From contig NZ_SEBR01000004.1 of the NCBI RefSeq assembly GCF_004295795.1, positions 62,001 through 126,000 of the forward strand: a DNA stretch of 64,000 nucleotides, in the 5' to 3' direction. Positions 4,352-19,752 of the stretch are shown here, piece after piece. Under the pieces are notes generated by a model that was given only the letters and a program-made list of their open reading frames with translations, had not been told where the DNA came from and did not search any database. The DNA is from Flavobacterium sp. GTDB taxonomy: Bacteria; Bacteroidota; Bacteroidia; Flavobacteriales; Flavobacteriaceae. The first letter of the stretch is position 1, and each line of letters starts with the position of its first letter. The position numbers and the translations under genes are program-made.

Positions 4352-4771
4352 TCAGTCCTTGAACCGCTCCCATTTTATGAGCATGAACTTGTCGCCAAGT
4401 TCCGTGATGATCATGCCTGCGCCCGAAAGATGCGATTTGTCCTTGAGGAATTCGATGAGTTCGGAATGGTTGTAGATCTTGTAAGTAGGATGATAATCGG
4501 AATGCGATGGCTTCTTGACCTTGAATTCTTTGACCCAATTGCTTACCGTCACGTGAGAAACACCGATAATCCTTTCTATCTCGCGGTAACTGATGCCTTC
4601 GAGATACAATTGCAAAGCTTTGGTGACGTAGTAGTTGTCGATCTTTTTCCCAAGCTTGTTCACGGTGAAATAATACTTGCACTTTTTGCACAAATACCGC
4701 TGTCTGTCGTTGATCACACCGCTTTTTACGACTTGCTCGTTCTGGCATTTGGGGCAGGCGAAAGCGTCCAT
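4352..4771 (-). CDS. Stand-alone IS1/InsA-type N-terminal zinc-ribbon + HTH protein (putative regulator)
   Basis: MDAFACPKCQNEQVVKSGVINDRQRYLCKKCKYYF (CxxC...CxxC) followed by HTH YREIERIIGVSHVTVSNWVKEF; no transposase catalytic domain follows. Confidence 0.7.
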   Translation of the reverse strand: MDAFACPKCQNEQVVKSGVINDRQRYLCKKCKYYFTVNKLGKKIDNYYVTKALQLYLEGISYREIERIIGVSHVTVSNWVKEFKVKKPSHSDYHPTYKIYNHSELIEFLKDKSHLSGAGMIITELGDKFMLIKWERFKD

Positions 4772-4909
4772 ATATATAAATTTTGCATAAATATAGCAAA
4801 TTAGCAAAAATGAAAAAATCGATTGTGTAAAAAAGTTGCTGTTATTTAACCGGATATAAAATTTTACGTCAGATTTTTTGCCGTTTGGATAAAATTTATA
4901 ACAAAGTAA

Positions 4910-4926
4910 CGGACGATAGGCGTCCG
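4910..4926. promoter_or_regulatory. Perfect interrupted palindrome CGGACG-ATAGG-CGTCCG, candidate operator
   Basis: 6-bp arms, 5-bp spacer, in the divergent intergenic region between the InsA-like gene and the aromatic operon. Confidence 0.4.
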
Positions 4927-4989
4927 AAATTCCTCCGCCAAATATACATCGCAAGCCAAAAATCCTTTAATTTGTGAAAACGACACACC

Positions 4990-5595
4990 ATGCAATTTGA
5001 CCCGGAGACGCTCGAGCATTCGGCCGTTTACAAACTATTGACCGGAGCCGTGATCCCGCGCCCGATCGGATGGATTTCCACCACAAGCCCAGAAGGAATA
5101 AACAACCTCGCCCCTTTCTCGTTTTTCAATGTCGTCGGCGAAGATCCGCCTCATATCATGTTTTCTACCGGAAGAACTGGCGATCGCAACAAAGACACTT
5201 TGAACAACGTTTTGGCGACGAAACAGTTCGTGGTCAATATGGTAACCGAGGCGACCGTCGAGAAAATGAACCTCACGGCGTCTTTGGTGCCGCACGACAT
5301 AGACGAATTCGACCTCGCCGGACTGACGGCACTTCCTTCGGCTTTGGTCAAACCGCCAAGAGTCGGCGAAAGCCCGATTCATTTCGAATGCGAACTCGCG
5401 CATCATTTCGAACTTGAAAACCACAAATATGGAGGCGCGGTAATGGTCGTCGGCCGTGTCGTGATGATGCATTTCGACGACGACGTCCTGTTGGACAATT
5501 ATAAAGTCAATTTGGAAACTTACCAGCCAATAGCAAGACTTGCGGGCGCGAACTATGCCAAACTTGGCGAAATCTTTACCGTAAAACGACCATGA
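4990..5595 (+). CDS. Flavin reductase family protein
   Basis: 201 aa; RPIGWISTTSPEGINNLAPFSFFNVVGEDPPHIMFS motif of the flavin reductase/flavoredoxin family. Confidence 0.85.
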   Translation: MQFDPETLEHSAVYKLLTGAVIPRPIGWISTTSPEGINNLAPFSFFNVVGEDPPHIMFSTGRTGDRNKDTLNNVLATKQFVVNMVTEATVEKMNLTASLVPHDIDEFDLAGLTALPSALVKPPRVGESPIHFECELAHHFELENHKYGGAVMVVGRVVMMHFDDDVLLDNYKVNLETYQPIARLAGANYAKLGEIFTVKRP

Positions 5596-7898
5596 AAATT
5601 TCCGTAATCGGCGGCGGCCCGGGCGGCCTGTATTTCTCGATCCTTTTAAAGAAGGCGCTTCCAGAGACGCAAATCGACATTTACGAACGCAATAAGGCGG
5701 ACGATGCTTTCGGCTTCGGAGTCGTTTTTTCAGACGAAACGCTGAGCGAATTCCTTTCGCGCGATCCAAAATCATACGACCTGATACGAAACAGTTTCGC
5801 GTACTGGGACGAACTCGACGTGGCCAGAGACGGGGAAATCGCGAGAATCACGGGAAACGGATTTTGCGGCTGTTCGCGAAAAACCTTGCTCCAACTTTTG
5901 CAGCAAAGATGTCGTGAAGAAGGCGTGAACTTGCATTTCGAGGCCAATGTATCCGATTTGTCGCAATTTTCAGATTCGGATTATATCGTCGCCTCAGACG
6001 GAATCAACAGCCAAATCCGCGAGAAATTCGCTTCGGAATTCGGAACCAAGATCAAGTTACAGCGCAACAAATTCGTGTGGCTCGGCTCGACCAAACCGCT
6101 CGACGCATTCACGTATTTTTTCCGCACGACGACTTTCGGCACATTCGTCGCCCACACTTACCAATACGAACAGGGAAAAAGCACCTGGATTTTCGAGTGC
6201 ACGCCCGAAACGTGGGAAAAAGCAGGTTTTGCGACCGAAAACGAATCGGACACGATTTCCAGATTGACTGAAATTTTCGCTGAAGAACTAGACGGCCACG
6301 AGCTGATCTCGAACCGTTCGCACTGGCGCCAATTCCCGACGATCTCCAACGAGAAATGGCATCACGACAACATCGTTTTGTTAGGTGACGCGAAAGCGAC
6401 CGCGCACTATTCCATCGGTTCGGGTACGAAACTCGCCATGGAATGCGCCATCGGTCTGGCCGATTCCATCATCAAATTCAGGTCTGACAAACCAAAAGCG
6501 TTCGAGCATTACGAACTTTTGAGGAGAAACCGAGTCGGGCAAATCCAGCACGCGGCCGGCGTTTCCCTCGATTGGTTCGAAAATATGGACCGACACGTGC
6601 AGCACGATTTTTACCAGTTCGCTTTCGGTGTGATGACGCGCGCCAAAAAAGTGACTTTCGAGAATCTGCAATTGCGCGATCCGTCGTTTACGCAAAAGGT
6701 TTTGACCGAATTCAATTGTGCGATCGGCAATTTCAAGGTCAACGTTCCCGCGGCTTTCACGAGGTTCGATTTGCGTGGGATGCGACTCAGGAATCGAATC
6801 GTGATGGCGGCAATGAGTCAATATTCAGCAGAAAACGGCCTGGTTTCCGATTGGCATCTGGTACATTACGGTGCTCGCGCTACCGGAGGCGTCGGATTGA
6901 TAATCGCTGAAATTACAGCTGTTTCGGAAGAAGGTAGAATCACTTTAGGTGACGCCGGAATTTACAATGAAGAACAGACAGTTGCGTGGAAAAAAGTGGT
7001 TGACTTCGTGCATCGGAATTCCAAATCGAAAATAGGAATACAACTCGGTCACGGCGGACGGAAAGGTTCTTGCCAGTTGCCGCAAAACGGACAATACACT
7101 TTGCCGCTCGAGAAAAACGGTTGGGAAATCATCTCGGCCTCGCCTATTCCGTTCAGCGATAAAATGCCGACGCCAAGAGAAATGACGCTTTCGGACATGC
7201 ACAAAGTCACGGCAGAATTCGTCAATGCCACCATAAACGCAGACGCCGCAGGTTTTGACATGATAGAATTCCAGGCACACCACGGATTTTTGATCGCTTC
7301 GTTTTTGTCGCCTCTGACCAATATCCGAGAGGACGAATTTGGCGGAAGCATTGAAAACAGGCTGCGTTTCCCGATTCAGGTTTTTACGGCCATGCGCGAG
7401 GTTTTCAACCAAGACAAACCGATGTCTGTGCGCATAACGGCAAGCGATTGGGCTGAAAATGGCATTACGGACGATGAAGTTTTGGCAATCGCTCGGGCTT
7501 TCAAGGCCGCCGGCGCAGACATCATCGACGTTTCATCGGGAAATACCGTTCCGCACCAAAAACCCGAAGTTGGCAGAATGTGGATGACGCCTTTTTCGGA
7601 TGCGATCCGCAACAGCGTTCACATCCCGACGATTACTGTCGGACAAGTCCAGGATGTCGACCAGATAAATACGATTTTGCTGAACGGACGCGCCGATTTG
7701 GTAGCGCTCGGAAAACCGCTTTTGCTCGATCCGAATTTTGTTCGCAACGCACAGGCTTACGAGCAATTCCAACCAGACGATATCCCGAACCAATACATTC
7801 AGGCCGCGAGTTCGCTTTTCAGTTTTAAAAAATCCGAGCGGCGCGAAAAAGAAGGCATGAAAAAGGCTTTGAAACCCGATTCGCACAAACGCAAATAA
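5592..7898 (+). CDS. Fused FAD-dependent monooxygenase + NADH:flavin oxidoreductase (OYE); salicylyl-CoA 5-hydroxylase / 2-aminobenzoyl-CoA monooxygenase-reductase type
   Basis: 768 aa; N-term GGGPGGLYFSILLKK FAD motif and GDAKATAHYSIGSGTKLAME; C-term OYE domain RLRNRIVMAAMSQYSAENGLVSDWHLVHYGARATGGVGLIIAE. Confidence 0.85.
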   Translation: MKISVIGGGPGGLYFSILLKKALPETQIDIYERNKADDAFGFGVVFSDETLSEFLSRDPKSYDLIRNSFAYWDELDVARDGEIARITGNGFCGCSRKTLLQLLQQRCREEGVNLHFEANVSDLSQFSDSDYIVASDGINSQIREKFASEFGTKIKLQRNKFVWLGSTKPLDAFTYFFRTTTFGTFVAHTYQYEQGKSTWIFECTPETWEKAGFATENESDTISRLTEIFAEELDGHELISNRSHWRQFPTISNEKWHHDNIVLLGDAKATAHYSIGSGTKLAMECAIGLADSIIKFRSDKPKAFEHYELLRRNRVGQIQHAAGVSLDWFENMDRHVQHDFYQFAFGVMTRAKKVTFENLQLRDPSFTQKVLTEFNCAIGNFKVNVPAAFTRFDLRGMRLRNRIVMAAMSQYSAENGLVSDWHLVHYGARATGGVGLIIAEITAVSEEGRITLGDAGIYNEEQTVAWKKVVDFVHRNSKSKIGIQLGHGGRKGSCQLPQNGQYTLPLEKNGWEIISASPIPFSDKMPTPREMTLSDMHKVTAEFVNATINADAAGFDMIEFQAHHGFLIASFLSPLTNIREDEFGGSIENRLRFPIQVFTAMREVFNQDKPMSVRITASDWAENGITDDEVLAIARAFKAAGADIIDVSSGNTVPHQKPEVGRMWMTPFSDAIRNSVHIPTITVGQVQDVDQINTILLNGRADLVALGKPLLLDPNFVRNAQAYEQFQPDDIPNQYIQAASSLFSFKKSERREKEGMKKALKPDSHKRK

Positions 7899-7946
7899 GT
7901 TCAGGCCGCGAATTGATTTGTAACCTTTGGTTTTCGAGATTTTTTT

Positions 7947-8475
7947 AACCGCGAATTCACGAATTTCATCTGACAACCGCACATAAATTCGCGAATTAGC
8001 GGTTAAAATAAAAAGGTAATGCGTTTTGATTCGTGAATTGCTTGCGTCAGTTCGCGTTGCTCGGGTCGTAACTGAAAAGAAATTTCAATCGATTTAGAGA
8101 CGCCAAAGCACAAGAGCAAATGCGGAAGTCTGAAGTTCAAAATCGATCAACCGCGAATTCGCGAATTTCATCTGACAACCGCACATAAATTCGCGAATTC
8201 GCGGTTAAAATAAAAAGGTAATGCGTCTTGATTCGTGAATTGCTTGCGTCAGTTCGCGTTGCTCGGGTCGTAACTGAAAATAAATTTCAATCGATTTAGA
8301 GACACCAACGCACAAGAGCAAATGCGGAAGTCTGAGGTTCAAAATTGATCAACCGCGAATTCGCGAATTTCATCTGACAACCGCATCTAAATTCGCGAAT
8401 TCGCGGTTAAAATAAAAAGGTAATGCGTCTTGATTCGTGAATTGCTTGCGTCAGTTCGCGTTGCTCGGGTCGTGG
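7947..8475. repeat. 202-bp tandem direct repeat (about 2.6 copies), each with an inverted repeat
   Basis: accgcgaattc repeat boundary at 7948, 8150 and 8352 (period 202); AACCGCGAATTCGCGAATTT ... AAATTCGCGAATTCGCGGTT arms. Confidence 0.9.
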
Positions 8476-8565
8476 CTCAAAAAACAAATATCAAAAATGT
8501 GGATAGCGGCGAAAATCAACAAAATCCGCGTTCCAAAAAACTGAAAATCCGAAAATAAAAAAGAG

Positions 8566-10170
8566 ATGTCCTACCAAGATAAGTTCGCCCAAAACCATCT
8601 TCCGCCAAAAGATATGATGCCGGAAATCAATCTCGACAATCCGGATTTTCAGTTTCCCGAAAACCTGAATTGCGTCGATTATCTGCTCGATCGCCACGTC
8701 CGGGAAGGAAATTCGGACAGAATCGCGATCAGGACTTTCGAAGGAAATTGGACGTTCGGCGAACTGTTCGAAAAAGCCAACCAAATCGCGCACGTGCTCA
8801 CGGACGACCTGGGATTCACGACGGGAAATCGCGTGCTGATCAGATCGGCGAACAACCCGATGTTCGTGGCTTGTTGGTTCGGAATCCTCAAAGCCGGCGG
8901 AATCGTCGTGGCAACAATGCCGCTTCTGCGCGAGAAAGAACTCACGATCATGTGCGACAGCGCCGAGATTTCGCACGCGTTCTGCGACAAAAAGTTGCTG
9001 GATGAGATGAAAACGGTAAAATCGACGTTCCTCAAATTCGTTTGCCCTTTCGATGGATCGGAAACCAAGGACTCGCAACTGGAACGCCTGATGGAAACCA
9101 AGCCCAGGACGTTCGACAATTTCAGGGCCAAATCTGACGATATCTCGATTATCGGATTCACTTCGGGCACGACCGGAAAGCCCAAAATGACGGCGCATTT
9201 TCACCGCGACATTCTGTTGGTTTGCGAAGCTTTCCCCAACTATTCGCTCAATCCGACGCCGGACGATATTTTCACGGGAAGTCCGCCGCTCGGCTTTACT
9301 TTCGGGCTTGGCGGAATGGTGTTGTTCCCGTTTTACTTTGGATCGTCGACATTCCTGATCGAAAAACCAAGTCCGGAAATGTTGCTCAAGGCCATTTCGG
9401 AACACAAAGTCACGATCGTTTTCACGGCTCCGACGGCTTATCGCGTGCTCACGCCATTGGTCAGGGATTTCGACATTTCGTCTTTGCGCAAATGCGTGTC
9501 GGCCGGAGAAACTTTGCCTTTGAAGGTCTGGAAAGATTGGCACGAAGCGACGAATCTCAAGATTATCGACGGCATCGGCTCGACGGAGATGCTTCACATT
9601 TTCATTTCGTCAACCGAAGAAAACATGAAACCCGGAGCAACCGGATTGGCAGTTCGCGGATACGAGGCCAAAATCGTCGATCACCTCGGAAACGATTTGC
9701 CCGAAGGTCAGGCCGGACGCCTCGCCGTTCGCGGAATCACGGGCTGTAAATACCTGAACGCGCCCGACAAACAGCGCGAGTATGTGGAAAACGGCTGGAA
9801 CATTACGGGCGATGTTTTCAAACAGGACGAAGACGGTTACTTCTGGTTCGTGGCGCGCGGTGACGACATGATCATCTCGTCCGGCTACAATATTTCGGCC
9901 ATCGAGGTGGAAAGCGTCCTGCTTATGCATCCCGAAATCGCCGAATGCGCCGTGACATCGACTCCCGACGAAGAACGCGGCATGTTGGTTTGCGCGCATA
10001 TCGTGCTGAGCGACAAATCGCAAGCCAATTCCGAGAAGGCCAAAGCGATACAGGAATGGTTCAAATTGGCCGCCGCGCCTTATAAATACCCGAGAATCGT
10101 TAACTTTATAGACCAGCTTCCGAAGACGGAAACGGGCAAAATCCAACGATTCAAACTCAAGCAGCAATGA
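8566..10170 (+). CDS. AMP-dependent aryl-CoA ligase (benzoate/2-aminobenzoate-CoA ligase type)
   Basis: 534 aa; GFTSGTTGKPKMTAH AMP-binding signature, ARGDDMIISSGYNISAIEVE, terminal PKTETGKIQRFKL. Confidence 0.85.
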   Translation: MSYQDKFAQNHLPPKDMMPEINLDNPDFQFPENLNCVDYLLDRHVREGNSDRIAIRTFEGNWTFGELFEKANQIAHVLTDDLGFTTGNRVLIRSANNPMFVACWFGILKAGGIVVATMPLLREKELTIMCDSAEISHAFCDKKLLDEMKTVKSTFLKFVCPFDGSETKDSQLERLMETKPRTFDNFRAKSDDISIIGFTSGTTGKPKMTAHFHRDILLVCEAFPNYSLNPTPDDIFTGSPPLGFTFGLGGMVLFPFYFGSSTFLIEKPSPEMLLKAISEHKVTIVFTAPTAYRVLTPLVRDFDISSLRKCVSAGETLPLKVWKDWHEATNLKIIDGIGSTEMLHIFISSTEENMKPGATGLAVRGYEAKIVDHLGNDLPEGQAGRLAVRGITGCKYLNAPDKQREYVENGWNITGDVFKQDEDGYFWFVARGDDMIISSGYNISAIEVESVLLMHPEIAECAVTSTPDEERGMLVCAHIVLSDKSQANSEKAKAIQEWFKLAAAPYKYPRIVNFIDQLPKTETGKIQRFKLKQQ

Positions 10171-11750
10171 GAAAAGTTTTCCTCGTTTTTTCAATCACGG
10201 CCTTGACCCTGACGGCAATTCTGGCGTTCATCAACTGGAAATTCGCGTTTCTCTTGGTGTTTTTCGTGCCTTTGATCGCCATGGGATTGTTCGACATGTA
10301 TCAATCGAGACACGCGATTCGCCACAATTTTCCTTTGGTGGGACGACTTCGCTATCTGTTGGAATCCATCGGGCCTGAAATTCGGCAGTATTTTGTGGAA
10401 ACCGATATCGACGGACGCCCGTTTGATCGTTTGCAGCGCGGTTTGGTTTACGCCAGAAGCAAAAAAGAGCTCGACACAAAGCCTTTCGGAACGCAATTGA
10501 ACGTGTATGACGAAGGTTACCAATGGATCAATCACAGTATAAAAGCCATCGCTTTCGCGGACATTGACGAGAATCCGAAAGTGCAGATTGGTTCGTCACA
10601 GTGTTCTAAACCTTATATGGCGAGCCTTTTCAACATTTCGGCCATGAGTTACGGATCGTTGAGCAAAAACGCGATCGTGGCTTTGAATCAAGGCGCGGCC
10701 CAAGGCGGATTCTATCACAACACTGGCGAAGGCGGACTTTCGCCGTATCATCTCGAAAACGGCGGAGACGTGGTCTGGAACATTGGGACGGGCTATTTCA
10801 GTTGTCGCGACCAATATGGCAATTTCTCTCCGGAACATTTCGCCGACCGCGCCCAAAAAGACAGCGTGAAAATGATAGAGATCAAGTTCTCCCAAGGCGC
10901 GAAACCCGGACACGGCGGGATTCTGCCGAAAGAAAAAGTTACGGACGAAATTGCGGCGATCCGACTGGTCAACAAAGGAAACGACATCATTTCGCCACCC
11001 AAACATTCCGCATTCAAAACGCCTTTGGAACTCATGGATTTCCTTAAGACGTTGCGCCATTTGTCTGGTGGGAAACCTGTTGGGATGAAGATTTGCGTCG
11101 GAAATAAATCGGAGTTCATTGCTATTTGCAAGGCGATGGTCGAAACGCAGACGTACTTTGATTTTATCACGGTCGACGGTGGCGAAGGCGGAACCGGAGC
11201 GGCTCCGATCGAATATTCGGATCACGTTGGGATGCCTTTGCGCGACGCCTTGGCCTTTGTGTACGATTGCCTCAACGGATTCGGGATCAAGGATCAGATC
11301 AAGATTGTGGCGAGCGGGAAAATCATCAGTGGATTCGACATTATCCGCGCGCTTTCGATGGGCGCCGACGTTTGCAATTCGGCGCGCGGAATGATGTTCG
11401 CCCTGGGTTGCATCCAGGCTTTGCAATGCCACGCCAATACTTGCCCGACAGGAGTTGCCACACAAGATCCGAAACTCGTGAGCGGACTTGATCCGGCCTT
11501 GAAGAGCGTCCGGGTCTTCAGGTACCACCACGAAACCGTGAAATCTGCTATGGAATTGATGGCTTCGGCCGGAATCGACCATCCCGACAGCGTGGGACGC
11601 GACGTGGTGAGCATGAGGATCGACAAAACGAATATCAGGACGTTCGCGGAACTTTTTCCCGAGCTCAAACCTGGCTGTCTGTTGCAGCCGGAAACCGTTC
11701 CCGACAAATTTTTCTACGACTGGAAAAAGGCTTCGAGCGCGACTTTTTAG
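10167..11750 (+). CDS. FMN-binding glutamate synthase (GltB2-like) family protein with N-terminal membrane segment(s)
   Basis: 527 aa; GEGGLSPYHLENGGDVVWNIGTGYF, VDGGEGGTGAAP, CHANTCPTGVATQDP motifs; hydrophobic N-terminus; ATGA overlap with the ligase. Confidence 0.85.
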   Translation: MRKVFLVFSITALTLTAILAFINWKFAFLLVFFVPLIAMGLFDMYQSRHAIRHNFPLVGRLRYLLESIGPEIRQYFVETDIDGRPFDRLQRGLVYARSKKELDTKPFGTQLNVYDEGYQWINHSIKAIAFADIDENPKVQIGSSQCSKPYMASLFNISAMSYGSLSKNAIVALNQGAAQGGFYHNTGEGGLSPYHLENGGDVVWNIGTGYFSCRDQYGNFSPEHFADRAQKDSVKMIEIKFSQGAKPGHGGILPKEKVTDEIAAIRLVNKGNDIISPPKHSAFKTPLELMDFLKTLRHLSGGKPVGMKICVGNKSEFIAICKAMVETQTYFDFITVDGGEGGTGAAPIEYSDHVGMPLRDALAFVYDCLNGFGIKDQIKIVASGKIISGFDIIRALSMGADVCNSARGMMFALGCIQALQCHANTCPTGVATQDPKLVSGLDPALKSVRVFRYHHETVKSAMELMASAGIDHPDSVGRDVVSMRIDKTNIRTFAELFPELKPGCLLQPETVPDKFFYDWKKASSATF

Positions 11751-11775
11751 ACGAATGTTGAACTGAAAAACCAAA

Positions 11776-11922
11776 CCGCAGCCCGGATGTCGCGGCTAGC
11801 TTTTGCGCTCCAACGCGTATTTTTTGCCGACGCGGGCTGGCTTTTTGAAAAAAAGACCCGGCCGCTAGTTGCAAAAAAACGCGGTGGCGTGTAAAACTAA
11901 TAGCGAACAGCCGGATTTGCTG
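11776..11922. repeat. Dispersed quasi-palindromic intergenic element, copy R4 (divergent)
   Basis: Ends AGCCCGGATGTCGCGGCTAGCTTTTG and AACTAATAGCGAACAGCCGGATT match ends of the copies at 16903, 31926 and 39503. Confidence 0.5.
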
Positions 11923-11935
11923 CCCAAACGATACC

Positions 11936-12361
11936 ATGAAAAAATTCGAAAAACACGAAACGATCCGCTTCAAGCATGTTGATTTTGCCGGAATCGTTTT
12001 TTATCCGAGATTTCTCGAAATGCTGAACGATTTGGTAGAAGATTGGTTTGGAGAGGAACTTGACAGGCCGTTTTCCAAAATACACCAAACCAATGGAATT
12101 CCTACCGTTGACTTAAAGGTTCAGTTTAGGAAACCTGCGAGGATTGGCGATGTTTTGGCCAAATCGCTTTGGGTTGCGAATCTGGGCGGCGCTTCGGTGA
12201 CTTGCGGTTTCGATTTTAGACATATCGACGGCAGTATTTGTCTCGAGGGCGAAGTGACTTTGGTGAACGTCGGGCTTGACAAAGCGGCCGATCAAATCAA
12301 GGCCGTTCCTTTTTCGGACGACACAAAATCAAAAATTTCCCAATTCCAAATCACAGCATGA
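11936..12361 (+). CDS. 4HBT-type acyl-CoA thioesterase
   Basis: 141 aa; RFKHVDFAGIVFYPRFLEMLNDLVEDWF hot-dog thioesterase motif. Confidence 0.85.
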   Translation: MKKFEKHETIRFKHVDFAGIVFYPRFLEMLNDLVEDWFGEELDRPFSKIHQTNGIPTVDLKVQFRKPARIGDVLAKSLWVANLGGASVTCGFDFRHIDGSICLEGEVTLVNVGLDKAADQIKAVPFSDDTKSKISQFQITA

Positions 12362-13329
12362 TGGACTTCAAAAAATTCAAAGCCGCGACCGTACAGACTT
12401 CTCCGGTTTTTTTGGACGTGGAAAAAACGGTCGAAAAAACAATTTCGATCATTGCCGAAGCTGCGTCGAACGGAGCAAAACTGATTGCTTTTCCCGAGGT
12501 TTTCATCGCGGGTTATCCGTATTGGAATTGGATCATGACGCCGATTCAAGGTAGTTCGTGGTATGAGAAACTGTACAGGAATTCGGTCGATGTTTTTGGT
12601 GCCGACATGCAAAGGATTTATGATGCCGCCAGGGAATTCGACATTCACGTGGTGATCGGGATCAACGAGCGCGGTGAAAGTTATGGGGAGATCTACAACA
12701 CGAATCTTATTATCGACAACCTTGGAAATCTTATCGGGAAACACAGAAAACTCGTGCCGACTTGGGCCGAAAAACTCACTTGGACTTCGGGTGACGGTTC
12801 GTCCCTGAAAGTTTACGATACCGAAGTCGGGCCGCTTGGAACTTTGGCTTGTGGCGAAAACACGAATACTTTGGCCCGATTCACTTTGCTTTCTCAGGGC
12901 GAATTGGTGCATATCGCCAACTATATTTCGCTTCCGGTCGCTCCGCCAGATTACGATATGGCCGAGGCGATCAAGATTCGGGCGGCGGCGCATTCGTTCG
13001 AAGGAAAATTGTTCACGATCGTTTCCTGCTCGACGATTTCCCCGGAAATTATTGAGGCAATGGCGGTCGATGTTCCTGAGGCGAGGGAACTTTTGACTCG
13101 CAAAAACTCGGCTTTTTCGGGATTTATCGGGCCGAACGGTGCTGTAATCGGCGAACCGTTGATTGATTTGGAAGGCATCGCTTATGCCGAAATCGACTTG
13201 GCCAAGTGTATCCAACCGAAACAGATGCACGATATTTTGGGGCATTACAATCGCTTTGATATTTTCGATTTGCGCGTGAATGTGGCTAAGACCAAAAAGA
13301 TAACTTTTTTGGATGGTTTTAACAATTAG
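12358..13329 (+). CDS. Nitrilase-branch carbon-nitrogen hydrolase
   Basis: 323 aa; Glu (FPEVF), Lys (KHRKLVPT) and Cys (LACGENTN) catalytic triad context. Confidence 0.85.
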   Translation: MMDFKKFKAATVQTSPVFLDVEKTVEKTISIIAEAASNGAKLIAFPEVFIAGYPYWNWIMTPIQGSSWYEKLYRNSVDVFGADMQRIYDAAREFDIHVVIGINERGESYGEIYNTNLIIDNLGNLIGKHRKLVPTWAEKLTWTSGDGSSLKVYDTEVGPLGTLACGENTNTLARFTLLSQGELVHIANYISLPVAPPDYDMAEAIKIRAAAHSFEGKLFTIVSCSTISPEIIEAMAVDVPEARELLTRKNSAFSGFIGPNGAVIGEPLIDLEGIAYAEIDLAKCIQPKQMHDILGHYNRFDIFDLRVNVAKTKKITFLDGFNN

Positions 13330-13378
13330 TGTAGATTTTCTGTAATTGGGTTTGGGAATTTCTGGATAGTTTTGGGTA

Positions 13379-13428
13379 CACCCTGTCAGGGTTATAAACC
13401 CTGTCACTGTTTTAAACGGTGACAGGTC
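13379..13428. repeat. REPIN-like palindromic repeat, copy A
   Basis: CACCCTGTCAGGGTTATAAACCCTGTCACTGTTTTAAACGGTGACAGGTC; immediately 5' of the RAYT-like ORF. Confidence 0.8.
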
Positions 13429-13448
13429 TAATCTAAAACATATACGCC

Positions 13449-14048
13449 ATGACGAAAAATCCAAAGCCGTTAGAATTCAATCAAGTCTATTACATAATGG
13501 CATCAGCCCTCGAAGAGCACTCGCTTTTTATTGAAGACTTAAACTATCCGTATTTTCTGAAGTCCGTCAAAAAATACGTCGAGCCAATCGCAGACGTTCT
13601 TGCATTTTGTCTGCTTCCTAATGAAATTTACATGATCGTAGCGATCAACGGGAAAGATTCCTTAATTTTCCTCGATGAACTCCAGAATGTTCCCGATCGG
13701 ATCAAACTGTATCCGTCCAGGCAATTTTCTAACCTTTTTAATTCTTATTCTCAGGCCACTGGAAAACGTTACGCAAGAACTGGGGGTCTTTTCAAGCGCC
13801 CGTTTTACAGGAAAATGATTTTGACTGCTGGCCAGTTGCAGCGTTGTATCATGCGAATACATCGGCTTCCCGTCGATTGCGGATATGAAACTGATTGGAA
13901 AAACTATAAGTGGAATTCGGCACAGACGTTTCAATCAGATGAATTTTCGGGCCTAAAAAAATGTATTGATGAAGACTTGGTCAACAGCTTTTCGGAATTT
14001 CTGATTTTGCGGGAAAAATATAAGCCTTCCGGTGTTCCTGTTTTCTGA
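13449..14048 (+). CDS. RAYT-like (REP-associated tyrosine transposase/Y1-type) protein with degenerate catalytic residues
   Basis: 199 aa; family landmarks (FCLLPN.., PSRQFSNLFNSYSQATGKRYARTGGLFKRPFYRKMI, RIHRLPVDCGY..KNYKWNS) but NHVH-type motif reads NEIY and the Tyr of YIHxNPV reads R. Confidence 0.7.
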   Translation: MTKNPKPLEFNQVYYIMASALEEHSLFIEDLNYPYFLKSVKKYVEPIADVLAFCLLPNEIYMIVAINGKDSLIFLDELQNVPDRIKLYPSRQFSNLFNSYSQATGKRYARTGGLFKRPFYRKMILTAGQLQRCIMRIHRLPVDCGYETDWKNYKWNSAQTFQSDEFSGLKKCIDEDLVNSFSEFLILREKYKPSGVPVF

Positions 14049-14068
14049 TATTTGTTAGGTAATTATAC

Positions 14069-14119
14069 CACCCTGTCAGGGTTATAAACCCTGTCACCTT
14101 TTTAAACAGTGACAGGGTG
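14069..14119. repeat. REPIN-like palindromic repeat, copy B
   Basis: CACCCTGTCAGGGTTATAAACCCTGTCACCTTTTTAAACAGTGACAGGGTG; 51 nt identical to the reverse complement of copy C. Confidence 0.85.
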
Positions 14120-14409
14120 TTTTTTGAAGGGTTTTCTGTTCCGCTATCGAAACTCAAAATCCAACAATCCAAAATGATAAGAACCAGAACAGCACCAGCA
14201 TCCGATAACAAAATCAAACCCTCCGGACAATTTTCAAAACAATTCATCCGCCAAGTCCCAACACGTTCGCTGAAATTCAATACTTTGGAAAGCCAAAGAT
14301 GCCAACAAAGAAACTTTGCCAATCTCCGGATGCAATTCTTTGTTACAAAAAAATAATCACGTCGAGATCGGCAAATCTCGAAGTTTAACTCATATAACAA
14401 AATGCGAAG

Positions 14410-15717
14410 ATGAGCCAATCAGACAACAAACTCAAGAAAGTATTGGGACTAGGTTTTGGGATTGCGATCTTCGTCGGAGGAACGATTGGCGTGGGAATCC
14501 TGCGCACACCTGGGGAAATCGCGGCCTATCTCGACAACGAGTGGCTTATCGTTTGCTGCTGGCTCGTCGGCGGGATTTACATTTTACTTGGATGCGGCGC
14601 CTATGCCGAATTGGCCACGTCAATCCCGAAAGCCGGCGGCTCGTACAACTACATCAAGCGCGCCTTCGGTGATTACGCCGGATTCATTTCGGGTTGGTTC
14701 GACTACATCACCAACGCGATCGCGCCAGCTTTTTTCTGCATCGTAATCTCGGAGTATCTCGCGATATTGTTTCCGCAAATCCAGAATCTAACAACGGTCA
14801 TCGCTGTTTCTTTCCTTGTCGGATTCACGGTTTTGCACGCAAGCGGCGTCAAGAGCGGAAGTGTCGTACAGCAAATCACGAGCGTGATAAAAGTGCTGTT
14901 TTTCGTCGGATTGATCGCAGCCTGTTTTATGTATTCGGGCATCGAAGTAAAACCGATCGCCATCGACAAAAAGGTGATGTCGGCCGGAATCGTCGTCGGA
15001 TTCATTAAATCGCTTCAGATGGTTTTGGGCGCGTACGACGGTTGGTACGCCATCTGTTTTTTTGCCGAGGAAGACGAAAATCCAAACAAGAACATTCCAA
15101 GGTCGCTTTACACCGGAGCCATTATCGTGATCGCGATTTATGCGTTGATCAACATGGCGTTCCTACAGGTGCTGCCCGCGTCCGACATGGCGAATTCACC
15201 CTTGGCGGCATCCGAAGTCGCGAAAACGGTTTTTGGGGCGAAAGGTTCGGCGATCGTAACGGTAATCGCAATTTTTTCGATCGTTGGAATATTGAATGCT
15301 TATCTGATGATTCCGCCGAGGATTTTGTACGGATTGGCGCGCGACAGCTTCTTCATTCCGTCGGCGACGAAAGTAAATTCGGGCGGCACTCCGATCGTGG
15401 CTTTGCTGTGTTCATCGGCTTTTACGTTCGGGTTGATACTTGTCGGATCGTTTAAAGTGTTGTTCGCACTGGCTACGTTTATGTCCGTCATTGTCTGGGG
15501 TTTGGCCTACGCGTCGCTGATAAAACTCAGGATTTCCGAACCCGAACTCGAACGTCCGTTCAAATCGTGGGCTTATCCGTTTTCGGCTATACTTCTTGTC
15601 GTGGTTTCTTTAGCGCTTATGATCGGATTCGCCGTTAACGACCTTGTAAGTCTTGGCGTGATCGCCGCAATCGCGCTCCTTTCCTACCCGATTTTCAGAA
15701 TGCTAAAACGTAGCTGA
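14410..15717 (+). CDS. APC family amino acid/organic cation permease
   Basis: 435 aa; GIAIFVGGTIGVGILRTPGEIAAYL and multiple TM segments. Confidence 0.9.
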   Translation: MSQSDNKLKKVLGLGFGIAIFVGGTIGVGILRTPGEIAAYLDNEWLIVCCWLVGGIYILLGCGAYAELATSIPKAGGSYNYIKRAFGDYAGFISGWFDYITNAIAPAFFCIVISEYLAILFPQIQNLTTVIAVSFLVGFTVLHASGVKSGSVVQQITSVIKVLFFVGLIAACFMYSGIEVKPIAIDKKVMSAGIVVGFIKSLQMVLGAYDGWYAICFFAEEDENPNKNIPRSLYTGAIIVIAIYALINMAFLQVLPASDMANSPLAASEVAKTVFGAKGSAIVTVIAIFSIVGILNAYLMIPPRILYGLARDSFFIPSATKVNSGGTPIVALLCSSAFTFGLILVGSFKVLFALATFMSVIVWGLAYASLIKLRISEPELERPFKSWAYPFSAILLVVVSLALMIGFAVNDLVSLGVIAAIALLSYPIFRMLKRS

Positions 15718-15742
15718 CTTATTTTTGAACCCAAGAAAACGA

Positions 15743-15773
15743 TTGCGTAATCGCGCCCTAAATCGTAAGTTTG
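15743..15773 (+). promoter_or_regulatory. Putative flavobacterial promoter TTG-N20-TAAGTTTG
   Basis: TTG 15743-15745 and TAAGTTTG 15766-15773, matching the TTG-N17-23-TAnnTTTG consensus, 16 bp upstream of the dioxygenase ATG. Confidence 0.65.
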
Positions 15774-15789
15774 GGAACAAACCGATTTT

Positions 15790-16896
15790 ATGGAAGCAAA
15801 ACAGTCCGACGACGTATTGGGTCGCGCGCGAGTCCAGGACACGCCAGAGCTCGAAGCCTATTACAAAGAACTCGAAACCCTTGGCGCGGGCGCACTTTGG
15901 ACGGTCGCCAACGACATCGAACCTTGGGAACCGCGATCTTCGTCTGTTCCGATGTTGTGGAAATATGAGAATTTACGCGAGCTTGTGCTGAGATCCGCTG
16001 ATTTGGTTACACCTGAAAAAGCGGGCAGACGCGTGGTTTATCTCGTAAACGAAAAACGAAAAGATGTTTCGGCCGCCGTCGGATGGCTCTACACCGGAAT
16101 CCAGGTCACGCGCCCGGGCGAAAGTACATCGGCGCATCGGCATAAAGCATCCGCATTAAGGTTTATAATGGAAGGAAACGGCGGTTATACTGTCGTGGAT
16201 GGAAATAAAGTCACATTCGAAGTCAATGATTTCGTAATTACGCCAAATTCGGCCTGGCACGAACACGGATGCGACGAAAACGGCCAAACCTGCATCTGGC
16301 AAGACGGACTCGACATTCCTTTGGTGAACGCGCTCGAAGCCAACGACTATGCGGTCTTTGACGGGAAACAACCTTTGAGAACAGAGACGAATTTTCTGCC
16401 GATTTCCTATTCCGGAGCCGGATTGCTTCCTACAAACCACGATTGGCAAAAACCGTATTCGCCACTTTTCAAATACGCGTGGAAAGACGTTTACCCGACC
16501 TTGATCGAAGTGTCCAAAGTCACGCAAGATTGTCCGTTCGACGGCATCATCATGCAATATTCCAACCCATTGACAGGCGGGCACGTCATGCAAACCATGG
16601 GAGCGTCAATGCAACTTTTACGTCCAAAATTTAAAGGAAAAGCGCACAAACACACGGGTTCGTTCGTCTATCAATGTGCAAAAGGACAAGGCTACACGAT
16701 TGTAAACGGACAGCGTTTCGACTGGAAAGAACGCGATATTTTCTGCGTTCCGAGTTGGGCTTGGCACGAACACGTGAATTTGTCGGAAACCGACGATGCA
16801 TGTTTGTTTTCGTTTAACGATTTGCCTGTAATTGAAGGACTTGGACTTTATCAAACAAAAGATTACGACCAAAATAACGGGTTTCAGCAAGTTTGA
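15790..16896 (+). CDS. Gentisate 1,2-dioxygenase (bicupin)
   Basis: 368 aa; two cupin repeats (HRHKASALRFIMEGNGGYTVVDG..AWHEHG and HKHTGSFVYQCAKGQGYTIVNG..AWHEHV). Confidence 0.88.
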   Translation: MEAKQSDDVLGRARVQDTPELEAYYKELETLGAGALWTVANDIEPWEPRSSSVPMLWKYENLRELVLRSADLVTPEKAGRRVVYLVNEKRKDVSAAVGWLYTGIQVTRPGESTSAHRHKASALRFIMEGNGGYTVVDGNKVTFEVNDFVITPNSAWHEHGCDENGQTCIWQDGLDIPLVNALEANDYAVFDGKQPLRTETNFLPISYSGAGLLPTNHDWQKPYSPLFKYAWKDVYPTLIEVSKVTQDCPFDGIIMQYSNPLTGGHVMQTMGASMQLLRPKFKGKAHKHTGSFVYQCAKGQGYTIVNGQRFDWKERDIFCVPSWAWHEHVNLSETDDACLFSFNDLPVIEGLGLYQTKDYDQNNGFQQV

Positions 16897-16902
16897 TTTT
16901 AG

Positions 16903-17053
16903 AAGCGGAAACCCGCTACCCGCTGCTAGCTTTCTTGAAACCGCCAATTTTTGTAAGTCTTGGCAAGAGCTTCCGCTGGTCGCTTTGCCAATCCAACAAA
17001 AAAAAGGCGTTTTCTGCAAAAGGCTATCCGCTTGTATCGGGGCTAGGCAATCT
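16903..17053. repeat. Dispersed quasi-palindromic intergenic element, copy R3
   Basis: CCGCTGCTAGCTTTCTTG ... AAGAGCTTCCGCTGGTCGCT ... CTGCAAAAGGCTATCCGCTTGTATCGGGGCTAG. Confidence 0.7.
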
Positions 17054-17134
17054 GTTCAACATCCAATATTCAACATTCGTTGTTCAACATTCCAAAACCA
17101 AACCTCTACTGATATCGAGTCATAAAAAGCAACC

Positions 17135-17503
17135 ATGTTAAACAGTAAAGAAATCAGTTTAGTCGAGAAAGAATTGCTCGAAGCCATGAAATCCAGCGAC
17201 GTCGAAAAGCTCGACCATTTGTTGCATGATGACCTGATTTTCCTGCTTCCGAACGGGCAAACGACGAACAAAAAATCCGATATGGAAGCGCATCGGTCAA
17301 AATTAATGATTATCGAAAAAGCAACATTTGAGCAAGGAGAAATCTCGATCATAGACGATTGCGCGGTGTCGAAAGTAAAGCTGATCGCTTGGGGGAAAAT
17401 GTCCGGACAACCCTTGTCAGGTGAATTCCATTATATAAGGGTTTGGAAAGTTTTTGGTGGCCAACTCAAAGTTATCGGCGGAAGTTGTGTGCAAAGTAAA
17501 TAA
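17135..17503 (+). CDS. NTF2-like/DUF4440-type small protein
   Basis: 122 aa; LLEAMKSSDVEKLDHLLHDDLIFLLPNGQTTNKKSDMEAHRS SnoaL/NTF2-like pattern. Confidence 0.7.
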   Translation: MLNSKEISLVEKELLEAMKSSDVEKLDHLLHDDLIFLLPNGQTTNKKSDMEAHRSKLMIIEKATFEQGEISIIDDCAVSKVKLIAWGKMSGQPLSGEFHYIRVWKVFGGQLKVIGGSCVQSK

Positions 17504-17639
17504 TAAGTGCAAAAAAATCGAAGCAACTTAATGTCCTTACTGCACTTAATGGTTTTTTTTAAATAGTTTCACAAGAACCAAAAGCGAGGCGCCTTATTGT
17601 TTTACAGACCTTTGAAGTTTATATTTACTGATTAGGACA

Positions 17640-17834
17640 ACGAATTATGAAAACGAACAACGAACAACGAAAAACGAATAACGAACAACGAATAACGAAC
17701 AACGAATAACGAACAACGAACAGTGAATCACGAATAACGAACAACGAACAGTGAATCACGAATAACGAATAACGAACAACTAACAACGAATAACGAACAA
17801 CTAACAACGAATAACGAATAACGAACAACGAATT
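17640..17834. repeat. AACGAA(CA/TA) short-period degenerate tandem repeat
   Basis: Visible run of aacgaacaacgaataacg units ending in AACGAATTTTGAA. Confidence 0.9.
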
Positions 17835-18749
17835 TTGAAATTAGCTACCTACACAATCCAAAACTCCGAACCAAAAATCGGAATCGCGCGCGAAGGCGTA
17901 CTACTTGACCTGGAAACACTAGGATTCAAGCACAATACGACGTTTCCGAAAACCATGCTCGAACTTATCGATTCAGGTCAAGACGAACTCAGGCGCATAG
18001 CCACAAAAATCAAGGAATCGAGCGAGAACGTGATCGCCTCGAGTTCTGTGCCGATGAGCGAAGTCACCCTACTCGCGCCCATCCCAAAGCCAAGAAAGAA
18101 CATCATAGGAATCGGGTTGAATTACACCGAACACGTGGCCGAAAGCGCCAGAACGCTAGACACTGACAAGGCACTTCCGCAAAAACCCGTCATCTTTTCC
18201 AAACCGCCAACGGCTGTAACGGGCACGAATACGGAGATCGTCCACAACGAAAAACTCACCCAACAACTCGATTGGGAAGTTGAGCTGGCTGTAGTGATCG
18301 GTAAAAAAGGCAAATACGTTTCCAAGGAAAATGCGATGGATTATGTCTTCGGATACACGGTAATCAACGACATTTCGGCACGCGATTGCCGACGCGCCGG
18401 CCAATGGATCGTATCCAAAGGACAGGACACTTTCGCGCCACTCGGACCGTTTTTGGTCACGAAGGACGAGATCGAGGATCCGCACAACCTCAATTTGTCG
18501 CTTACCGTGAACGGCGTCGAAAAACAGCGTTCGAACACGAAATTCCTGTTGTTCCGAATTCCGGATCTGATCGAGGATTTGAGCGAAGTCTTCACGCTTG
18601 AACCCGGCGATATCATCGCAACCGGAACTCCCTCGGGCGTTGGTGCCGGGCGCGATCCACAGGAATGGATGTGGGACGGAGACGTCGTCGAGGCTACTGT
18701 CGAGAAGATCGGAACGCTCAAAAACACCGTCAAAAAACTCGAAAGATGA
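17835..18749 (+). CDS. Fumarylacetoacetate hydrolase family protein (maleylpyruvate/fumarylpyruvate hydrolase candidate)
   Basis: 304 aa; IGIGLNYTEHVAES, GYTVINDISARD, GTPSGVGAGRDP motifs; TTG start. Confidence 0.88.
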   Translation: MKLATYTIQNSEPKIGIAREGVLLDLETLGFKHNTTFPKTMLELIDSGQDELRRIATKIKESSENVIASSSVPMSEVTLLAPIPKPRKNIIGIGLNYTEHVAESARTLDTDKALPQKPVIFSKPPTAVTGTNTEIVHNEKLTQQLDWEVELAVVIGKKGKYVSKENAMDYVFGYTVINDISARDCRRAGQWIVSKGQDTFAPLGPFLVTKDEIEDPHNLNLSLTVNGVEKQRSNTKFLLFRIPDLIEDLSEVFTLEPGDIIATGTPSGVGAGRDPQEWMWDGDVVEATVEKIGTLKNTVKKLER

Positions 18750-18925
18750 ACAACAAGACTGTCTTACTCTTTTTGATCGTTTTGAATCTATTGGTTTTGC
18801 TGGGACAATTGCTGCCGGAACTTGCGCCGCCGTTTGGTCGCGCGGTCAACATCATTTTCTTGGTCTGCAGTTTCCTTTTCTTTGCCTCTGCGTTGTCCAA
18901 TCTCAAAAAAGGCGACAGAAACTGA
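18746..18925 (+). CDS. Small two-helix membrane protein
   Basis: MNNKTVLLFLIVLNLLVLLGQLLPELAPPFGRAVNIIFLVCSFLFFASALSNLKKGDRN; ATGA overlap with the FAH gene. Confidence 0.5.
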   Translation: MNNKTVLLFLIVLNLLVLLGQLLPELAPPFGRAVNIIFLVCSFLFFASALSNLKKGDRN

Positions 18926-19002
18926 ATTTTCCCCAAAGTCAAATTCCGTGGCGAAATCGTCCAAATCTTGATTGATCGATACCGAATACAAAAAACAATC
19001 CA

Positions 19003-19752
19003 ATGAAAAAATACAGAATCGGCCAGATCGTGCCATCGTCAAACGTGACGATGGAAACCGAAATCCCGGCAATTTTCCGCTCGCGCGAAACCATTTTGCC
19101 CGAAAAGTTCACGTTTCATTCGAGCCGGATGCGCATGAAAAAGGTCACGAAGGAAGAACTCGAAGCCATGGACGCGATGAGTTTGAAATGTGCGATGGAA
19201 CTTTCGGATGCCCACGTCGACGTGATGGGTTACGCCTGTCTGGTGGCGATCATGAGCATGGGGCGCGGTTACCATTGCGTATCCGAAGTGAATTTGCACC
19301 AGGAAACGATCGCTAACGGTTTCCCGACTCCGATCGTGACGAGTGCCGGCGCACTTATAAACGGACTCAAGGTTTTGGGCGCAAAAAAAGTCGCGATAAT
19401 CACACCTTATATGCGTCCGTTGACTGATATGGTCGTCGACTACATCACGCATCAAGGCTTTGAAGTCGTCGATTCGGTTGCTTTGGAAATTCCCGACAAT
19501 CTCGAGGTCGCGGCGCAAGATCCGATGAATCTGCTGGAAATCTACAAAAGACTTGATCTCACTGGCGTGGATGTTTTAGTAGCTTCGGCCTGCGTCCAGA
19601 TGCCTTCTTTGGAAGCGATCGACCTGCTGGAAAAAGAAATCGGCATTCCGGTGACCTCCGCTGCGGTTTGTACCACTTATGAAATGATGAAAAAACTTGG
19701 GATCGAAGCCAAATCGGCCATCGGCGGAAGCCTGCTAAATGGGGATTACTAA
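19003..19752 (+). CDS. Maleate cis-trans isomerase family (Asp/Glu racemase superfamily)
   Basis: 249 aa; two Cys motifs DVMGYACLVAIMSMG and VASACVQMPSLEAI. Confidence 0.82.
   Translation: MKKYRIGQIVPSSNVTMETEIPAIFRSRETILPEKFTFHSSRMRMKKVTKEELEAMDAMSLKCAMELSDAHVDVMGYACLVAIMSMGRGYHCVSEVNLHQETIANGFPTPIVTSAGALINGLKVLGAKKVAIITPYMRPLTDMVVDYITHQGFEVVDSVALEIPDNLEVAAQDPMNLLEIYKRLDLTGVDVLVASACVQMPSLEAIDLLEKEIGIPVTSAAVCTTYEMMKKLGIEAKSAIGGSLLNGDY

Follow-up and report, generated by a model that had tools for sequence, protein, structure and literature searches.

Which aromatic acid is degraded by the gene cluster at positions 4990 to 19752 of the Flavobacterium sp. DNA analyzed here (64,000 nucleotides, referred to as the window), and by which route is its ring opened? 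The initial annotation had described a candidate hybrid coenzyme A (CoA)/gentisate pathway for salicylate or anthranilate in a flavobacterium-like genome. All of the claimed genes were found in place, intact and on the + strand, and the proposed origin agrees with the named matches and the same-genus relatives, which are Flavobacterium. A core of eight genes, designated FRED, HYD, LIG, THIO, NIT, GDO, FAH and MI (Table 1), was found to be conserved. Based on sequence comparison, this core operon probably degrades anthranilate by a route in which CoA activation is combined with ring cleavage.

In the proposed route, LIG would form anthraniloyl-CoA, which would be hydroxylated at C5 by the FAD domain of HYD. 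With the fused old yellow enzyme (OYE) domain impaired by a His to Gln replacement, the product would stay aromatic, and THIO would free 5-hydroxyanthranilate from the CoA thioester. GDO would cut 5-hydroxyanthranilate between C1 and C2, the amino group at C2 ending as the carboxamide of maleamylpyruvate. FAH would remove pyruvate, leaving maleamate, from which NIT would give maleate and ammonia (in an alternative order, NIT would act ahead of FAH), and MI would convert maleate to fumarate. What is retained of the earlier outline, on gene content and conservation, is the course from the acid through aryl-CoA, 5-hydroxylation, release from the thioester and 1,2-cleavage to maleate and fumarate; its free gentisate and maleylpyruvate are not retained, these being probably 5-hydroxyanthranilate and maleamylpyruvate. 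The annotated nitrilase is present, but it had been given no pathway step, only indolic nitriles being named as test substrates, and it is now placed inside the pathway as a candidate amidase. The suggestion of a distinct pathway variant gains support, the variant being assembled from known enzyme families. The fuller proposal comprises a complete anthranilate pathway, direct conversion of 5-hydroxyanthranilate to maleamylpyruvate, an obligatory amidase of the nitrilase superfamily, parallel loss of the OYE reductase in three HYD lineages, and a module spread over three phyla under the labels "salicylyl-CoA hydroxylase", "cupin" and "nitrilase"; it is held with slightly more belief than doubt.

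Conservation of the core genes

The gene order FRED-HYD-LIG-THIO-NIT-GDO-FAH-MI was common to about 80 Flavobacterium-type loci, a few of whose records carry other organism labels. FRED was kept in all 62 loci with upstream flank. Among the 55 loci with full downstream flank, LIG, THIO and NIT were within reach in every one, GDO in 50, FAH in 49 and MI in 44, some of the losses being edge effects. At the thresholds used, GLTB was counted in 17/55, APC in 4/55, NTF2 in 2/55 and the RAYT-like gene in 0/55, and other Flavobacterium copies hold different, unrelated genes between the core genes. The 12-gene set is therefore reduced to the eight-gene core as the unit, and the GltB-like, APC and NTF2-like genes, formerly listed in the cluster, fall outside it as occasional cargo.

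As shown by the genome comparison, HYD and GDO were confined to one and the same set of 16 among 60 relatives, for which the chance would be 1 in 1.5e14 if the genomes were independent, which in fact they are not. NIT and GDO likewise shared the identical 6 of 396 Bacteroidota genomes. HYD was present in those six and in one further genome (G397), whose HYD keeps the OYE His and in which GDO and NIT were searched for and neither was found. The core cluster is conserved and not a product of chance.

Hydroxylation, ring cleavage and C-N hydrolysis

HYD, an FAD monooxygenase fused to an OYE domain, fits the architecture of 2-aminobenzoyl-CoA monooxygenase/reductase. Against NF006101 (PRK08255) it scored 970.6 bits, under the cut-off of 1078; its best NCBIfam match, which is under cut-off, is named salicylyl-CoA 5-hydroxylase. 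In the Azoarcus-type enzyme, the fused OYE domain reduces the ring after hydroxylation. The reductase site HxxHxY is not intact in the HYD of the window, where it reads QxxHxF; its two His positions correspond to His172 and His175 of thermophilic OYE (TOYE; numbering from the aligned PDB chain), which we take to line the substrate site. Every one of the 80 Flavobacterium loci has Gln at the first position, as do four HYDs elsewhere that adjoin a member of the GDO clade (L119, L125, L126 and L127), whereas His stands there in all 10 HYDs that have no GDO-clade neighbor in the stretch examined (one of them, L114, is truncated close to where its record ends, and another, L113, is without annotation). 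Genes annotated as SDR, enoyl-CoA hydratase and acyl-CoA dehydrogenase stand alongside six of these ten. In a maximum-likelihood tree, the GDO-linked HYDs fell into three separate groups, at least three label changes being forced by supported branches, although in this unrooted tree parallel change and one gain with losses are not separable. HYD is accordingly placed as a predicted 5-hydroxylase whose ring reduction would be impaired through the His to Gln change.

The Azoarcus evansii 2-aminobenzoyl-CoA pathway shares with this operon the CoA ligase and the fused FAD monooxygenase/OYE. Its end is beta-oxidation-like, whereas the Flavobacterium cluster has Gln for the OYE His together with NIT, MI and a predicted cleavage by GDO, and its conserved set is without SDR, enoyl-CoA hydratase, acyl-CoA dehydrogenase and RidA.

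The nearest solved relative of GDO is from Ruegeria (Silicibacter) pomeroyi. GDO keeps the three-His iron site and the substrate-binding residues (SDO R83, Q108, R127, H162 and D174), and it scored 293.9 bits against the gentisate 1,2-dioxygenase family TIGR02272, under the cut-off of 442.1. It belongs to a clade (55-64% identity) that stands apart from classical gtdA, to which identity is 40% or less. The active-site residues were tried as a discriminator between an amino and a hydroxyl group and rejected, no difference from gentisate dioxygenases being seen. Gentisate dioxygenases open the ring between C1, which bears the carboxyl group, and C2, which bears the hydroxyl group and ends up as a carboxylate. 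With an amino group at C2, cleavage would give a carboxamide, and a C-N hydrolase would therefore be needed ahead of maleate isomerase; a salicylate route would need none. GDO is thus a predicted 5-hydroxyanthranilate 1,2-dioxygenase.

NIT is a predicted amidase acting on maleamate or maleamylpyruvate. Its Glu-Lys-Cys triad is present (E47, K131, C165) and, with the CGENTN motif, was found in 70/70 Flavobacterium copies and in every module orthologue. Against the nitrilase family TIGR04048 it scored 227.5 bits, under the cut-off of 502.6. The nitrilase Cys-Trp-Glu motif is not in NIT, all orthologues having CGE; among three aligned reference nitrilases, two have CWEH and one CAEH, so that Cys-Trp-Glu is not strict. 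No NIT was found in the phage records searched. FAH matches maleylpyruvate hydrolase 6jvv and its relatives and is predicted to yield pyruvate and maleamate (or maleate). MI aligned over its whole length with maleate isomerase 4fq7, with both candidate Cys (79 and 197) aligned, and is predicted to convert maleate to fumarate.

Outside Flavobacterium, the nearest NIT relatives (60-68%) lie on plasmids, where they form a module of four genes together with GDO, FAH and MI. This module was found in Ruegeria, Shinella, Sulfitobacter, Sagittula, Leisingera, Caballeronia and Embleya (Pseudomonadota and Actinomycetota). GDO of the same kind comes after a HYD in Caballeronia SBC1 and Cupriavidus taiwanensis. 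That NIT acts after FAH rather than before is suggested by the gene order of Caballeronia and Shinella (L123), GDO-FAH-NIT-MI. In Novosphingobium, the neighbors of the GDO-clade gene are HYD, THIO, FRED and a CN-hydrolase of another subfamily (34% to NIT); in Aminobacter and Tistrella, GDO, FAH and FRED are found with the same other CN-hydrolase subfamily (31% to NIT), and MI was not detected in these four Novosphingobium, Aminobacter and Tistrella loci. Since two CN-hydrolase subfamilies (31-34%) pair with one GDO clade, C-N hydrolysis is the constant.

The Caballeronia module, HYD-GDO-FAH-NIT-MI (L119), adjoins IorAB and a cyclase-family protein (PF04199, 11701-12480 of that locus), possibly an isatin hydrolase giving isatinate to IorAB. 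NIT-GDO-FAH-MI without HYD was seen at five loci (L115-L118 and L120), the first four adjoining IorAB, thioesterase and MarR genes; such modules might serve 5-hydroxyindoles, for example 5-hydroxyindoleacetate. IorA and IorB figure in the list of auxin-locus genes given by Conway et al., and anthranilate is the endpoint of the iad route. The iad/iac signature (IorAB, Rieske dioxygenase, MarR regulator) is absent from the Flavobacterium core gene order, and IorAB and MarR were found beside the NIT-GDO-FAH-MI module only in Pseudomonadota.

Choice of substrate and known systems

Anthranilate is a breakdown product of tryptophan and indole. The best PDB match of LIG is the anthranilate-CoA ligase 4wv3 (292 bits, versus 231 bits for benzoate-CoA ligase), and LIG shares 47-51% identity with the ligases found in seven other HYD operons, including that of Arthrobacter Rue61a. 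The expressed plasmid ligase of Rue61a formed anthraniloyl-CoA, anthranilate-grown cells contained hydroxyanthraniloyl-CoA (presumed from its formula), and salicylate was no growth substrate. The gene ARUE_RS22905 in the locus compared here is taken from gene order to be the assayed ARUE_113p00220. Alcaligenes aquatilis QD168, with a gene annotated as sdgC, can use anthranilate but not salicylate for growth, and it also has other anthranilate genes. Relatives of THIO (31-43%) lie beside the four GDO-linked HYDs elsewhere, and those of FRED (35-40%) adjoin the CN-hydrolase in the Novosphingobium, Aminobacter and Tistrella clusters. LIG is probably an anthranilate-CoA ligase, and THIO is predicted to release 5-hydroxyanthranilate. 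Anthranilate is favored over salicylate because of the nearest solved relative of LIG, the physiology of Rue61a and the need of the CN-hydrolase for a ring amine, which narrows the choice of substrate that the initial annotation had left open.

An Sdg-type salicylate route, through salicylyl-CoA, 5-hydroxylation, gentisate, maleylpyruvate, maleate and fumarate with an incidental CN-hydrolase, would account for the complete set of gentisate-dioxygenase residues in GDO and for the name of the top NCBIfam match of HYD, even though that match falls under cut-off. It is nevertheless unlikely: a CN-hydrolase of one of the two subfamilies stands beside the GDO clade at almost every locus (Cupriavidus L125 is the exception), two classical gentisate (gtdA) clusters carry maiA and FAH with neither a CN-hydrolase nor a maleate isomerase, LIG looks anthranilate-type, and neither Rue61a nor QD168 grows on salicylate. 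The same route might serve a substituted anthranilate or another ortho-amino acid (e.g., hydroxy- or N-substituted); the substrate pockets of LIG and HYD may admit such compounds, and the HYD-free modules suggest 5-hydroxyindoles as a second entry, but the enzymes nearest to LIG in sequence are named for unsubstituted anthranilate, and this reading is quite improbable. Least credible is a true nitrilase atop the pathway, by which the acid for LIG would be made from an aryl or indolic nitrile. The best family matches of NIT, the Nit6803 family and PDB nitrilases, and its Glu-Lys-Cys triad are what such an enzyme would have; against it, Gly follows the catalytic Cys (Trp or Ala in the references), and NIT stays with GDO, FAH and MI even at loci that lack HYD and LIG of this type.

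Several observations weigh against the anthranilate pathway itself. The GDO residues are those of gentisate dioxygenases, and sequence cannot separate an amino from a hydroxyl group at C2. NIT scores best against nitrilase families, and the nitrogen might leave as ammonia during cleavage without an enzyme. Loss of reductase activity through the His to Gln change is a prediction, and the role of FRED in the pathway is uncertain. At the Cupriavidus locus (L125), HYD-GDO-FAH was found with neither NIT or another CN-hydrolase nor MI nearby, transposase genes lying just downstream, and some modules (Ruegeria, Shinella) are without an adjacent HYD. There is no specific tie between the operon and anthranilate supply, kynureninase, tryptophan dioxygenase and 3-HAO being nearly universal in the genus whether the operon is present or not; their phylogenetic profile, tried as a clue to the substrate, was uninformative for that reason.

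The anthranilate pathway proposed here has parts in common with several known systems. The gentisate pathway (gtdA, maiA, FAH) likewise has an FAH hydrolase and a bicupin 1,2-dioxygenase, whose catalytic residues are those of GDO; it differs in that the Flavobacterium GDO belongs to a separate clade, MI replaces maiA and a CN-hydrolase is in the core. The Sdg system of Streptomyces WA46 shares CoA activation, 5-hydroxylation and gentisate-type cleavage, whereas, by its description, the CN-hydrolase, the maleate isomerase and the seemingly anthranilate-type ligase set the Flavobacterium operon apart. With the lower nicotinate pathway (maleamate amidohydrolase, NicE) the operon shares the predicted conversion of maleamate to maleate and fumarate, MI being close to maleate isomerase, but its amidase would be of the nitrilase superfamily and its carbon skeleton would come from anthranilate. 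In Nocardia opaca, anthranilate is converted through 5-hydroxyanthranilate to gentisate (Cain 1968, cited in PMC4539516, where the relevant passage names no genes). The 5-hydroxyanthranilate intermediate is common to both, although in Flavobacterium hydroxylation would be CoA-bound and cleavage direct, without gentisate. For this anthranilate "gentisate pathway" via 5-hydroxyanthranilate, the relevant passages of PMC4539516 and PMC6221969 call the enzyme "unreported" and state that the functional gene "has not yet been revealed". A literature search of partial coverage turned up no account of these genes as a set, and an earlier account may exist. If true, the proposal names concrete candidates, in a genus that can be cultured, for a branch of anthranilate degradation to which these reviews assign no ring-cleavage genes; it also offers a residue switch that can be tested in a bifunctional flavoenzyme, and grounds to correct misleading labels.

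Gene coordinates, cargo and flanking elements

Table 1. Positions of the core genes, cargo genes and the Gln561 codon in the window.
Feature	Position	Strand	Remark
FRED, flavin reductase-like	4990..5595	+	PF01613, Pfam 1.9e-25; core gene
HYD, FAD monooxygenase + OYE fusion, 2-aminobenzoyl-CoA 5-monooxygenase type	5592..7898	+	FAD_binding_3 + Oxidored_FMN
HYD Gln561 CAG codon	7272..7274	+	replaces conserved OYE substrate-binding His (TOYE His172)
LIG, aryl-CoA ligase, probably anthranilate-CoA ligase	8566..10170	+	best PDB match 4wv3
GLTB, GltB-like FMN protein, lineage-variable cargo	10167..11750	+	PF01645 5.7e-88
THIO, 4HBT-type thioesterase	11936..12361	+	PF13279 9.3e-10
NIT, CN-hydrolase, CGENTN motif, predicted amidase	12358..13329	+	PF00795 1.2e-39
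RAYT-like gene	13449-14048		between NIT and APC; label by inspection
APC, amino acid permease, lineage-variable, possible importer	14410..15717	+	PF13520 3e-52
GDO, bicupin ring-cleaving dioxygenase	15790..16896	+	nearest PDB 3bu7, 522 bits
NTF2-like DUF4440 protein, lineage-variable cargo	17135..17503	+	PF14534 7.9e-20
FAH, acylpyruvate hydrolase	17835..18749	+	PF01557 1.2e-72
MI, maleate cis-trans isomerase	19003..19752	+	4fq7, 317 bits

The pairs FRED/HYD, LIG/GLTB and THIO/NIT overlap by 4 bases, and promoter and terminator scans gave no signal above shuffles. Upstream of the operon lie a small IS1/InsA-like protein (4352-4954, -; an InsA/IS1-type zinc ribbon and helix-turn-helix protein), a porin and an MFS transporter, which were detected upstream in 33/62, 12/62 and 28/62 copies, respectively; further upstream are two acs-like genes, named by inspecting translated starts. 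The putative regulator, porin and transporter were considered as operon members and left out of the unit, because their upstream presence is patchy, relatives of the regulator are present in genomes without the aromatic operon, and the acs-like genes are near.

Cargo in other Flavobacterium copies (e.g., L042, L063 and L099) includes alpha/beta hydrolase-, methyltransferase- and DinB-like genes, identified by inspection. The RAYT-like gene and three 202-bp tandem repeats in the gap between HYD and LIG were absent from the earlier reading. The tandem units (7947-8552) carry the palindrome AACCGCGAATTCGCGAATTT, with 91 matches in the genome, mostly partial. A REP/RAYT-type element within the operon (13387-14096) consists of the RAYT-like gene, so labeled by inspection and without a match in a Pfam search, and a CAGGGTTATAAACCCTGTCA palindrome on either side of it; the two palindromes are identical, and the genome has 28 exact copies. 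The gap between the NTF2-like gene and FAH (17624-17839) holds an array of 7/14-bp repeats, AACGAAT/AACGAAC.

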